Below, piece after piece: positions 5,438 through 23,325 of a DNA stretch of 40,672 nucleotides. Each line of letters opens with the position of its first letter. Within the stretch, counting starts at the first letter, position 1. The stretch lies in contig VBMN01000074.1 of assembly GCA_005878385.1 (NCBI GenBank), positions 1 to 40,672 on the forward strand, in the 5' to 3' direction. This DNA comes from Methanobacteriota archaeon. GTDB taxonomy: Archaea; Thermoplasmatota; Thermoplasmata; RBG-16-68-12. A program made the translations under genes and the position numbers. Under the pieces are notes generated by a model. The model saw only the letters and a program-made list of their open reading frames with translations, was not told where the DNA came from and searched no databases.

Positions 5438-5989
5438 CTAGCGGAGGAGCCCGGCCGCTTTCAGCTCTTCCGTGATCTTCTCGACCGCCTGCTCGACGTC
5501 CTGCGGCTTGCGGGCTCCCGTGCACACGAGTTTGCCGCTCCCAAAGAGGAGCACGACCACCTTCGGCACGTCGATTCGGTAGACGAGCCCGGGGAACTGC
5601 TCCGGTTCGTATTCCACCTTCTCGAGGCCGAGGGAAATCGCGATTGCGTTCAGATTGATTTCCGTGCCCAGGTCGGACGAGGCGACGATGTTCTGGACCT
5701 CGATCTCCGGGTTCTTCTTGATGGGGATGCCGGCGGCCTCGATCTGCTTCGCGACGATTTCAATCGCCTGCTTCACGTGCTCGAGGCTCTTCGCCCCCGT
5801 GCAGACGACCTTGCCGCTCCGGAACAGGAGGGTCGCGGTCTTCGGCTCCTTGAGGCGGTAGATCAGTCCGGGGAATTGCTCGGGCTCATACTCCGCGCCT
5901 CCGAGGGCGAGGGCGATCGCCTGGAGGTCGAGCTCCTCCCCAAGGGAGGTCGAAGCGACCACGTTCTCAATTTTGATTTTAGCCACCAT
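5438..5989 (-). CDS. tbp: TATA-box binding protein
   Basis: 183 residues made of two direct repeats of the saddle fold. Each repeat contains the QFPGLIYR/QFPGLVYR strand and the GSGKVVCTGA-type stirrup motif (RSGKVVCTGAK, GSGKLVCTGAR), which insert Phe pairs into the TATA minor groove. The frame continues upstream to 6091, but ATG 5989 is the start: it begins the standard MVAKIKIENVVAS sequence and is preceded by a strong Shine-Dalgarno. It is the essential archaeal basal transcription factor and leads an operon with the SRPBCC protein and the TatD-like hydrolase. Confidence 0.97.
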   Translation of the reverse strand: MVAKIKIENVVASTSLGEELDLQAIALALGGAEYEPEQFPGLIYRLKEPKTATLLFRSGKVVCTGAKSLEHVKQAIEIVAKQIEAAGIPIKKNPEIEVQNIVASSDLGTEINLNAIAISLGLEKVEYEPEQFPGLVYRIDVPKVVVLLFGSGKLVCTGARKPQDVEQAVEKITEELKAAGLLR

Positions 5990-5990
5990 A

Positions 5991-5998
5991 TCACCTCC
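5991..5998 (-). promoter_or_regulatory. Strong Shine-Dalgarno of tbp
   Basis: On the minus strand GGAGGTGA lies immediately before TATG, with a core GGAGG to ATG spacing of about 5 nt. It fixes the start at 5989 rather than the upstream frame extension. Such clear sites are rare here, where most genes look leaderless. Confidence 0.8.
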
Positions 5999-6060
5999 GA
6001 GCTTGCCGGCGGTCCCATGGAGCCTGCCGGGGCTCGGCAAGGTTGGGGAGTTAAATAGTC

Positions 6061-6070
6061 CTTTATAAGG
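6061..6070 (-). promoter_or_regulatory. TATA box of tbp
   Basis: CCTTATAAAG on the minus strand, placing transcription start near 6037 and giving tbp a leader of about 45 nt that carries the Shine-Dalgarno. Confidence 0.7.
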
Positions 6071-6096
6071 TTTGGTCGCAGACGTGCGCATTCCGA

Positions 6097-7014
6097 CTAC
6101 TCAGCCGCCGACTCGCGGGCTCGCACGACCGCGTACATGGCCTGGTTCAACGGGACACCGATTCGGTGGCGGGCTGCCGCCCGGACGATGGGTCCCGTGA
6201 TGGCGTCGATCTCCGTCCGATGGCGTCGGTCCAGATCCTGCAACATGCTTCCACGATTCGCGGCGGTCCGCTTGGCGATCAACAAGGTGCGGTGACGGAG
6301 CTCCTCCGCGTCCACGTGGGCGCCCTCCGCTTTGGCGACCGACGCGGCCTCTCGACACACGGCCTCAAGGACCGCAAGGAGCCTCTTGTCGCGGATCAAG
6401 CGGCCATTCGGGACGCCGGCCACCGCCGCGAGCGGATTGATCGACGCATTCACGACGAGCTTGGACCACAGCTCGGTCCGGACGTCGCTCGTGACCTGCG
6501 CAACGATCCCGACATCGGCGAGGACGTCCCTCAGCCGGACGAGATCGGCCTCGTCCACGTGGGACCACGCACCGAGGACGGTGTCGCCGACTCCGGCATG
6601 TCGGATCTCACCGGGACCGACATAGGTCACGCCGATGGCCGTCGTGCCAGCGACGACGCGGCGCGCCGTCTTCGCGATCGTGTCCGCATTCCCGAGTCCG
6701 TTCTGGAGTGTCACAAACGTGGACCGATCCGCGAGGCGCTGCAGAGCGAGCATCGCGTCCGGCGTGTCATACGCCTTCGTCGTCACGAAGACGAGATCGG
6801 GTTTTGCGTTCTGCGGTACCGTCGTCGATGCATCGGGCTTCGCGATCACGGATGTCTTCCCCATGATGCGAAGTCCGTGCGCGCGAATTGCATCGACGTG
6901 TTCCGATCGTCCGATCAGCACGACGTTGTGTCGGCGCGAGAGCATTCCGCCGATGAAACTGCCCATCGCGCCCGCTCCGAACACGAGAATTTCCACAGTT
7001 CGCCGGAGTAGCAT
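6097..7014 (-). CDS. panE: 2-Dehydropantoate 2-reductase (ketopantoate reductase)
   Basis: 305 residues. It would reduce ketopantoate to pantoate with NADPH in coenzyme A synthesis. The N-terminal Rossmann motif is VFGAGAMGSFIGG; TLQNGLGN and the catalytic Lys region ELWSKLVVNASINPLAA match the ApbA/PanE family, as does the C-terminal helical region with NRGSMLQDLDRR containing the Ser-Met-xx-D motif. ATG 7014 is used; GTG 6996, closer to the Rossmann strand, is an alternative. Archaea use this reductase or variants for CoA synthesis, often with pantoate kinase, which is not in this window. Confidence 0.9.
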   Translation of the reverse strand: MLLRRTVEILVFGAGAMGSFIGGMLSRRHNVVLIGRSEHVDAIRAHGLRIMGKTSVIAKPDASTTVPQNAKPDLVFVTTKAYDTPDAMLALQRLADRSTFVTLQNGLGNADTIAKTARRVVAGTTAIGVTYVGPGEIRHAGVGDTVLGAWSHVDEADLVRLRDVLADVGIVAQVTSDVRTELWSKLVVNASINPLAAVAGVPNGRLIRDKRLLAVLEAVCREAASVAKAEGAHVDAEELRHRTLLIAKRTAANRGSMLQDLDRRHRTEIDAITGPIVRAAARHRIGVPLNQAMYAVVRARESAAE

Positions 7015-7056
7015 CGTGTGAAAAAACGGTTTCGGTGCTCTCGACGCATTGCTCGC

Positions 7057-7068: not shown

Positions 7069-7101
7069 TCGAAGAATGTCCGAATTTTCTCGCCTTCGCT
7101 A

Positions 7102-7111
7102 CTTTTAAAAC
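7102..7111 (+). promoter_or_regulatory. TATA box of the micro-ORF gene
   Basis: CTTTTAAAAC on the plus strand, 35-40 bp from and divergent to the panE TATA box. Predicted start near 7131, just upstream of the Shine-Dalgarno GGGAGGA (7134-7140). Confidence 0.65.
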
Positions 7112-7145
7112 CCCTTAGACTATTACAGATTTAGGGAGGAAACAA

Positions 7146-7184
7146 GTGGCCAAGAAGAAAAAGGGCAAGAAAAAGAAGCGATAG
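7146..7184 (+). CDS. 12-residue lysine-rich micropeptide
   Basis: A GTG-started 12-codon frame encoding MAKKKKGKKKKR, ended by TAG. It is preceded by GGGAGGA at 7134-7140 with a 5-nt spacer, one of the best Shine-Dalgarno sequences in the window, and by a TATA box at 7102-7111. A GC-rich stem and T-tracts follow. Nine of 12 residues are basic, which suggests RNA or ribosome binding like the tiny basic ribosomal protein eL41, although it does not resemble eL41 in sequence. It is far below the usual gene-calling limit. The alternative is that the transcript is a small RNA and the frame is incidental. Confidence 0.6.
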   Translation: MAKKKKGKKKKR

Positions 7185-7206
7185 GCCGCTTGCCCACACA
7201 ACCCTA

Positions 7207-7274
7207 GCGGTGATTCGCCCTTCGCGGCTCACCGCGCCGCACCCTTTTCCCGTTTTTCATTCCCTTTTATTTCT
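7207..7274 (+). terminator. Stem-loop and T-tracts downstream of the micro-ORF
   Basis: GCGGTGA (7207-7213) pairs with TCACCGC (7229-7235) around a 15-nt loop. Runs of T follow at 7244-7247, 7252-7256 and 7264-7267. Archaeal termination often uses T-tracts alone, so this is a plausible 3' end for the micro-ORF transcript. The right arm overlaps the stop codon of the convergent endonuclease V gene. Confidence 0.5.
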
Positions 7275-8176
7275 CTCGAGACTCGATCTGCAATTCGCAG
7301 CGCTTCCGGGTATCTGTGCTGCGTGGTCTTACGGACCAAATCCAGTGCGCGCGGGAGAGAAATGCGATGACCGACGGAGACGTAGATCGCGCGCGATCGA
7401 TTCGGCGGTGTCCACGCATATCCGCGTGTGACTCCGTCGATGCGGACCGAGTGAGCGGCCGCATGTTTCTCGGACGTCGGTTGAACGCGACCGGCGAGCG
7501 GATGCTTTGCCACACCGATCGTCGGCAGATCGAGGCGGATTCCCGTGTAACAGGCGATGCCGAACAGCGCGGGGTGCAATCGCCCGTGTCCATCGATCAT
7601 GAGCACATCGGGTCGCCGGGAGAGCCGCCGGACCGCCGACTCGATTCCCGGGAACTCTCGGTAGGCGAGGTACGTCGGGATGTATGGGAAATCCACCTGC
7701 CTTCGGACGAGGGCGATCTCAATCGTCTCGAGATTTCCGAGAGCGATGGAAACGGCGGCCGCATACATCTCATCCCCTTGGTAGCCCACATCGACGCCGC
7801 CGATGATCTCGATCGGTCCGGGAGCGTCCCGCTCGATGACCCTGGAAGCGAGTCGCCGCTGTTCAGCACGAAGGAGTCCGAGGAATTTGACGCTGGGCAA
7901 CGAGGCGACAATCCGGGAATCATCGACGCGACCTCGGGCGAGGTGGAGGCCCTCTCGCTCAAGGCGCCGCCGGGCTTGTGCGAGGACGGGCCGACCGTCG
8001 GCGCGGACGACGCGGTGGCCTTCCGGCGTGTCCGGATGATCTACTAGCCAGGTTGCGACGGCACGTGCGGCTCGTACGTCGCCGAGGGCGCGGGCGACGG
8101 CACCGCACGTCGCCACTCGCCTGCGCGGAATTTCGGCGAGGCATTGCGACACGGCCTTCGCGAAGTTCGAGTCCAC
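7229..8176 (-). CDS. nfi: Alkyltransferase-like domain fused to endonuclease V
   Basis: 315 residues, GTG start. Residues ~5-70 match the DNA-binding C-terminal domain of O6-alkylguanine-DNA alkyltransferase (QCLAEIPRRRVATCGAVARALG, split by a wing helix), but the acceptor-site PCHRV reads EGHRV, so the methyl-accepting Cys is missing and this half can only sense or bind alkylated DNA. The rest is endonuclease V: GGVDVGYQGD (first metal Asp), FPYIPTYLAYREFPGI, and MIDGHGRLHPALFGIACYTG with the catalytic Asp and His, then LPTIGVAKHPLAG. EndoV cuts next to deaminated inosine. An active AGT-EndoV fusion is known from Ferroplasma; the Cys loss here is notable. Confidence 0.9.
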   Translation of the reverse strand: MDSNFAKAVSQCLAEIPRRRVATCGAVARALGDVRAARAVATWLVDHPDTPEGHRVVRADGRPVLAQARRRLEREGLHLARGRVDDSRIVASLPSVKFLGLLRAEQRRLASRVIERDAPGPIEIIGGVDVGYQGDEMYAAAVSIALGNLETIEIALVRRQVDFPYIPTYLAYREFPGIESAVRRLSRRPDVLMIDGHGRLHPALFGIACYTGIRLDLPTIGVAKHPLAGRVQPTSEKHAAAHSVRIDGVTRGYAWTPPNRSRAIYVSVGHRISLPRALDLVRKTTQHRYPEALRIADRVSREIKGNEKREKGAAR

Positions 8177-9528: not shown

Positions 9529-10185
9529 GTGATCGTCGGTGTGGACGAAGCCGGGCGAGGGCCAGTCATCGGCCCGCTCGTGGTCGCCGGAGTGGCCGTC
9601 GAATCGGATGTCCCCCTTCGTCACCTGAACGTCCGCGATTCGAAGAAACTCTCGCCGGAGCGCCGGGAGGCCCTGGCCCCGGAGATCGAGAAAGTGTCGA
9701 CGTACGAGCTCGTCGTGATCCCCGCGGAACGGATCGACGTGATGCGGTCGGAGATGTCGCTCAACGATTTCGAGGCGAAGCTGTTTGCCGAGGTGATCGA
9801 CAAGTTGCGCCCGGAGACCGCGTACGTGGACGCCGCGGACGTCGACGAGATCGAGTTCAAACGTTGCGTCCGCAAAGAGCTCGCGTTCGACGTGGAGATC
9901 GTGTCCCAGCACAATGCCGACGAACTGTTCCCCGTCGTCAGCGCCGCCTCGATCCTCGCCAAGGTGTGTCGAGACCGCGAGATGCGGTTGATCGAGGACG
10001 AGATCGGGCTGCACATCGGATCCGGCTACGCCTCGGACACGGACACGATCGCGTTCTTGGAAACGTGGATTCGCCAGCATGGATCGCTGCCGCCGCACAC
10101 GCGGGCCTCGTGGGACACCGCGCGGCGCCTGCTCGCGGGATCCCGGAACCACAAGCTCGACGAGTTCGGTGGGGGAATCCCATGA
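9529..10185 (+). CDS. rnhB: Ribonuclease HII
   Basis: 218 residues, GTG start. It cleaves RNA in RNA-DNA hybrids and single ribonucleotides in DNA. The catalytic acidic residues are in GVDEAGRGPVIGP (D6, E7), TAYVDAAD and the later DRE/Asp motif; the Tyr-type ribonucleotide-recognition GRG triad is intact. The C-terminus FLETWIRQHGSLPPHTRASWDTARR matches archaeal RNase HII. It starts 3 bp after the deaminase stop and shares an ATGA overlap with the next gene, so the three are probably one operon. Confidence 0.96.
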   Translation: MIVGVDEAGRGPVIGPLVVAGVAVESDVPLRHLNVRDSKKLSPERREALAPEIEKVSTYELVVIPAERIDVMRSEMSLNDFEAKLFAEVIDKLRPETAYVDAADVDEIEFKRCVRKELAFDVEIVSQHNADELFPVVSAASILAKVCRDREMRLIEDEIGLHIGSGYASDTDTIAFLETWIRQHGSLPPHTRASWDTARRLLAGSRNHKLDEFGGGIP

Positions 10186-23209: not shown

Positions 23210-23325
23210 GCCGAGGTCGCCTAGTCCGGTAGGGCGCCAGCCTGGAGAGCTGGTGGGCGTAAGCCCTCGGGAGTTCAAATGGCTCCCGCTCTGGTGACGG
23301 CTGCCTGGAAGTCTCCCCCTCGGCG
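23210..23325 (+). tRNA. tRNA-Ser (GGA) with a T-loop intron
   Basis: Acceptor GCCGAGG (23210-23216) pairs fully with CCTCGGC (23318-23324); discriminator G is 23325. Anticodon stem CCAGC/GCTGG (23237-23241 with 23249-23253) presents GGA at 23244-23246. The long variable arm GGGC-GTAA-GCCC (23255-23266) marks a class II tRNA-Ser. T-stem GGGAG (23269-23273) pairs with CTCCC (23313-23317) only after removing an intron between A59 (23279) and T60 (23312). CCA is not encoded. It ends 1 bp before the stop codon of the convergent isomerase gene. Confidence 0.95.
23280..23311 (+). other. T-loop (59/60) tRNA intron with bulge-helix-bulge
   Basis: A 32-nt intron. The central helix TTCA (23274-23277) pairs with TGGA (23306-23309), with one U-G pair. 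Bulges AAT (23278-23280) and AGT (23310-23312) place the cuts at 23279/23280 and 23311/23312. The inner stem GGC/GCC (23281-23283 with 23303-23305) continues to CCG/CGG (23286-23288 with 23298-23300) across a small internal loop. Confidence 0.88.

Follow-up and report, generated by a model that had tools for sequence, protein, structure and literature searches.

A conserved twelve-codon lysine-rich micro-gene between panE and nfi in an archaeal order, with a predicted polycationic product

The spacer between panE and nfi raises the question of whether a reading frame of only 12 codons is a gene in its own right and, if so, what its product does. In the window, the whole 40,672-nucleotide stretch of soil-archaeon DNA analyzed here, the micro-ORF lies on the forward strand at positions 7146–7184, running from a GTG start (7146–7148) through the 12 codons of MAKKKKGKKKKR to a TAG stop (7182–7184). 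The peptide contains eight Lys and one Arg, and beyond Met1 and Ala2 it consists only of Lys, Gly, and Arg. Upstream on the same strand, the core promoter TTCGCTACTTTTAA occupies 7095–7108 of an element spanning 7095–7110, with the TATA-like TTTTAAAA at 7103–7110 ending 23 nt upstream of the Shine-Dalgarno (SD) sequence. The latter, GGGAGGA (7134–7140), is separated from the GTG start by the 5-nt spacer AACAA. On the 3′ side of the micro-ORF, GCGGTGA (7207–7213) and TCACCGC (7229–7235) form a hairpin. Since its 3′ arm shares sequence with the stop codon of nfi, which runs convergently, the hairpin probably serves as a shared terminator or 3′-end element for the two convergent genes. It is followed by T-tracts at about 7242–7275 on the forward strand, antisense to the nfi 3′ end, which form a probable archaeal termination region; they are kept within the genus, yet are partly constrained by nfi coding. 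The parts listed in the first-pass annotation (TATA box, GGGAGGA, 5-nt spacer, GTG, stem, and T-tracts) are thus all present in the sequence. The neighbors are panE on the reverse strand (6097–7014; ketopantoate reductase family, Pfam PF02558 and PF08546), which is divergent, and nfi on the reverse strand (7229–8176; endonuclease V, PF04493 and PF01035), which is convergent and present in 36 of the 37 genomes of the order. The TATA-binding protein gene (5438–6091, reverse strand) lies on the panE side, and the RNase HII gene (9529–10185, forward strand) lies beyond nfi.

Such an arrangement is not readily produced by chance. The ORF pattern, with three mismatches allowed, has a single match in the window, and 100 shuffles produced none. 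Ten SD-preceded ORFs of 9–20 codons occur in the window; the micro-ORF has a Lys content of 67%, while the runner-up reaches 14%, and the maximum for ORFs of this kind in 60 simulated windows (2.4 Mb) is 19%. The earlier statement that so good a ribosome site on a 12-codon frame is unlikely by chance is upheld by the shuffles and by the simulated Lys maximum. The accompanying remark that most starts in the window look leaderless is fair as regards the rarity of SD sequences: a 5-mer SD at any start in the first quarter was found in 8 of 44 crude ORFs, defined as those of 100 aa or more, and several of these are internal.

Twenty-three genomes carry the micro-gene in their panE–nfi spacer; from isolate names, we take the order to which they belong to be GTDB RBG-16-68-12, or Ca. 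Angelarchaeales. The order RBG-16-68-12 has been described as Ca. Angelarchaeales (PMC9038741). Records named "Euryarchaeota archaeon isolate EA_n" carry the same ORF. A DNA similarity search across 60 relatives recovered the spacer from the majority of genus members, and further out the similarity is weaker and confined to the SD-ORF core. A codon-degenerate pattern gave exactly one match per genome in 19 of the 37 genomes of the order, and no further match among 400 genomes of the class. The total of 23 comprises these 19 together with diverged copies read from the panE–nfi junctions, namely MAKKGKKGKKGKKR in G003, MAKKAKKGKKGKKR in G009, MQKKKGKKKKR in G025, and, in G024 of another family, MPKKIPKKKAKKSHK following the SD TTGGAGG. 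The length of the peptide varies in frame from 11 to 15 aa among the orthologues (11, 14, and 15 besides 12). The panE–nfi alignment in relatives proposed by the first-pass annotation revealed a frame that is open in 23 of 23, with neither a frameshift nor an internal stop; its caveats are ACG at the start position in two genomes and one loss. G021 contains a further candidate (L139, MAKKGKKGKSKKR), which was discarded because its frame stays open for 67 codons upstream.

Families f2, f3, and f6 include nine genomes whose panE directly adjoins nfi with no ORF in between, and several sister families never had the micro-gene at this position. G002, a 98% complete genome from the same genus as carriers, has lost it, and the micro-gene therefore appears dispensable rather than indispensable. 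G019, whose contig ends inside nfi, was left out of the presence count. In an EF-2 tree, the carriers fall into one clade (93/93), in which G002, the sister of the carrier G009, represents the only loss. The distribution fits a single origin, with one gain and one loss.

The substitution pattern points to selection at the peptide level. Among the 19 twelve-codon copies, the varying positions in codons 2–12 comprise seven third positions, versus two first and one second. A minimum spanning tree of the haplotypes contains 12 synonymous versus 2 nonsynonymous changes, and both nonsynonymous changes reside in a single codon (K5S) of G021. The synonymous excess has a P of about 3e-7 for an expected fraction of 0.2, and of 1e-5 under strong transition bias. 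The synonymous changes fall at Lys, Ala, and Arg codons, and Gly, Ala, and Arg are kept as well as Lys. The signals are similarly conserved: in 16 genus members, identity is 100% for the SD, 97% (mean pairwise) for the TATA element, and 94% for codons 2–12, as opposed to 57% for the TATA–SD spacer and 69% for the 3′ flank. GGAGG is found in all 23 orthologues, and the start codon is GTG, ATG, or TTG in 21 of the 23 genomes. The other two, G001 and G016, have ACG at this position; as they are close sisters in the EF-2 tree, this counts as one event. The first-pass view that this is a real micro-gene thus receives strong support from the retained SD and frame and from Lys codons that, apart from K5S, vary only synonymously. 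We conclude that the locus is very probably a genuine monocistronic coding micro-gene under coding selection.

Three rival readings must be weighed against this conclusion. The ORF could have arisen by chance within a conserved promoter region and never be translated, and the ACG start in the two sister genomes and the loss from another are in keeping with this idea. The synonymous bias, the absence of the pattern from the shuffles, the in-frame length changes, the exchange among GTG, ATG, and TTG, and the SD that is invariant in the genus leave it only a slim chance. Alternatively, the RNA could be the functional product, as a small or dual-function RNA whose ORF serves mainly for ribosome loading or RNA stability. 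The promoter is kept, and the transcript would head towards the nfi 3′ end as an antisense RNA. Folding of the 23 orthologues places a hairpin at the position 3′ of the ORF in most, not all, of them: both arms are altered in G010 and G015 (GCGATGA/TCATCGC), and one arm is altered in G007, G001, and G016. Selection on the peptide, as shown by synonymous-only substitution and frame-preserving length changes, and the rapid divergence outside the SD and ORF make this reading improbable. Rfam yields no match at the micro-ORF, and its only match in the window is a tRNA at 23210–23272. Amino-acid attenuators are likewise short SD-led ORFs rich in one codon, and the micro-ORF could by this likeness be a regulatory leader peptide or a lysine-sensing attenuator for a neighboring gene. 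There is, however, no co-oriented gene downstream for it to control: at all junctions examined nfi is convergent, and the forward strand carries its next gene only on the far side of nfi, at a distance of more than 1 kb. Because nfi converges just downstream, and given that Gly, Ala, and Arg are kept besides Lys, a leader peptide is very unlikely, and this reading carries the least weight of those considered. A type I toxin or membrane-active peptide was set aside, as the composition of MAKKKKGKKKKR includes no hydrophobic segment.

For the coding micro-gene, the parsimonious reading is a free peptide with a charge of roughly +10. The dedicated TATA promoter would give rise to a very short leadered mRNA, with a transcript start just upstream of the SD as judged from the usual archaeal TATA spacing. 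The SD would then direct translation of a free dodecapeptide, the charge of about +10 arising from eight Lys, one Arg, and the N-terminus. Such a peptide is predicted to be unstructured, with no fold of its own, and to bind RNA through its charge, with rRNA inside or on the surface of the ribosome as the probable target; there the peptide may fill an electrostatic role like that of basic ribosomal-protein tails or of bTHX, bL37, and eL41. Ribosome or RNA binding, also suggested by the first-pass annotation, is a predicted function, plausible from the composition, for which the chances are about even. It is favored by analogy with basic ribosomal tails, by the continuing discovery through ribosome structures of small ribosomal proteins missed by annotation, such as bS22 and bL38 (PMC10618245), and by the link between Lys-rich low-complexity segments and nucleic-acid binding (PMC6821194). 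We assign a probability of roughly 0.5 to the complete statement, in which a coding micro-gene produces a free peptide that binds RNA or the ribosome. No ribosomal-protein genes adjoin the micro-gene. The promoter 13-mer TTCGCTACTTTTA, sought at other genes in three genomes with up to one mismatch, occurs once per genome, which hints at gene-specific control over a shared ribosomal-protein promoter and argues mildly against a simple ribosomal role.

The peptide may instead be translated but act on DNA or other polyanions, polyphosphate included, as a mini nucleoid or condensing peptide comparable to a free histone-H1-type tail, or as a genetically encoded polyamine substitute. The bacterial analogues of the AAKK/GGKK type described below resemble histone-H1-like tails. 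The composition by itself suits any polyanion equally, and an enrichment of Lys-rich low-complexity regions among DNA-binding proteins is documented (PMC6821194). Nothing specific speaks against DNA or polyphosphate binding, as charge is not discriminating; 12 residues would nevertheless bind DNA weakly unless very abundant, as condensation needs. It is a serious rival to the RNA or ribosome reading, even though we judge it unlikely.

Known small basic proteins offer partial parallels to the predicted RNA- or ribosome-binding peptide. eL41, bTHX, and bL37 are also very small and strongly basic, and are usually missed by annotation. They are about 24–26 residues long and contain Arg, Trp, and structured or Arg-rich segments, whereas the archaeal micro-peptides comprise 11–15 residues of nearly pure Lys and would have no fold of their own. 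The small, helical bL37 of mycobacteria lies close to the peptidyl transferase center (PMC10618245). The eL41 profile PF05162 gave no match in 61 genomes, with control genomes equally silent. The Lys-rich tails of ribosomal and histone-like proteins are alike in composition and in non-specific nucleic-acid binding, which is documented there (PMC6821194) and predicted here. Such tails, however, are appendages of larger proteins, while here nothing but the tail is encoded, under a promoter and SD dedicated to it. An archaeal precedent for translating hundreds of unannotated small ORFs comes from Methanosarcina mazei, in which Ribo-seq identified 314 translated unannotated sORFs of at most 70 aa (PMC11456600). 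We found no description of a Lys-rich dodecapeptide in that study, and the word "lysine" is absent from its main text (PMC11456600).

When about 85,000 species genomes of bacteria and archaea were scanned for an SD followed by MAKK...KKR and a stop, at least 119 matches were obtained. Most of these mark where a long gene begins, a recurring 229-aa Enterococcus protein being one example, and were rejected, as were two lying inside longer ORFs in another frame (L091 and L096) and one cut at a contig end (L086). Among the matches listed, free-standing SD-led MAKK...KKR micro-ORFs (9–16 aa) are found in many phyla; those of bacteria belong to Acidobacteria, an FCPU426-like order, Patescibacteria, and others, and many end in terminators. 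In several groups, pairs of related contigs keep the SD, the ORF, and the flanking hairpin or terminator-like sequence. A Patescibacteria pair encodes MAKKRKKKR, related Acidobacteria contigs encode MAKKGGKKKGGKKR and MAKKAAGKKKGAKKR, and the Levybacteria micro-genes, MAKKKKRKKR and MAKKKKKKKR, lie downstream of a seryl-tRNA-synthetase-like gene as judged by eye. The micro-ORF occurs once in each of 13 bacterial look-alike genomes. At the level of orders, micro-ORFs are present in 8 of 149 genomes of the Acidobacterium order, with synonymous codon differences and with two neighboring copies in two genomes, in 4 of 9 genomes of the order of L099, where one of five matches is not Lys-rich, and in 2 of 15 genomes of the order of L080; the search pattern was narrow, and these counts are minimum values. 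Rfam detected nothing at the micro-genes on the bacterial contigs, with tRNAs and one PyrR site elsewhere. The 41 matches in viral contigs include no convincing free-standing analogue, and a viral origin was set aside.

Several details accompany these bacterial loci. The Acidobacteria micro-genes (L107, L126, and L295–L305) are free-standing, SD-led MAKK[A/G/T]..KKKGGKKR frames, some duplicated 250 bp apart, that lie by eye between TPR-like and HEAT/cyclophilin-like genes; their upstream leaders are long and resemble one another, and they have hairpin terminators. In Patescibacteria, MAKKRKKKR is accompanied by a near-identical 3′ region, AAGACTTTGCAAAGTCTGCCCACCTTAACGG...GGAAGGTGGGTTTTT, at L080, L117, L306, and L307, in genomes whose names assign them to different candidate phyla. 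The MAKKKKRKKR-type frames of Levybacteria and a relative (L138, L149, and L160) have an inverted repeat, TTACCAATTGATCAGTTGGTAA, conserved on their 3′ side, together with a terminator.

The bacterial micro-ORFs resemble the archaeal gene in their 9–16 codons, M-A-K-K start, K-(K-)R end, strong SD, and free-standing position, often with a hairpin terminator, and in being kept within several groups. They differ from it in neighbors, promoters, and Ala/Gly spacing, and some Acidobacteria have two tandem copies. The sequences are too short for homology to be provable, and the bacterial and archaeal micro-genes are most likely convergent. It is tentatively proposed, at slightly short of even odds, that MAKK...KKR genes of 9–16 residues constitute a recurrent unannotated class with independent origins in archaea and several bacterial phyla, providing a polycation for ribosomes or other nucleic acids. 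If this is correct, the class would be among the smallest dedicated proteins known. The literature searched contained no description of the peptide strings or of such a gene class. The length cutoff of common gene finders exceeds twelve codons, and digestion with trypsin would leave no intact peptide; genes of this kind are thus invisible to both annotation and routine proteomics. The bacterial look-alikes suggest that many genomes may hold a standalone polylysine gene, which makes testable the question of whether small polycations are encoded as dedicated ribosome or nucleic-acid factors.

Some minor observations concern the neighbors and the marker gene. In the nfi product, endonuclease V is preceded at the N terminus by a DNA-binding domain of the MGMT type (PF01035, residues 4–74); this domain reads PEGHR where the PCHR motif is usual, and its alkyl-accepting cysteine therefore seems to be missing. 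In Ferroplasma, an alkyltransferase is fused to endonuclease V. In G016 and G001 (L043 and L046), the sisters whose micro-gene begins with ACG, the nfi gene also ends earlier, with a stop after MKGE. Directly upstream of panE, CGAAACCGTTTT at about 7021–7036 on the reverse strand is kept in the genus, G009 included, and, being near the expected panE transcription start, is a possible operator. The aEF-2 match splits near residues 32–35 within one long open frame in L239, L241, L242, L244, G025, and G000, an example being the 1238-codon frame of G018; the split hints at an intein located in the P-loop region.
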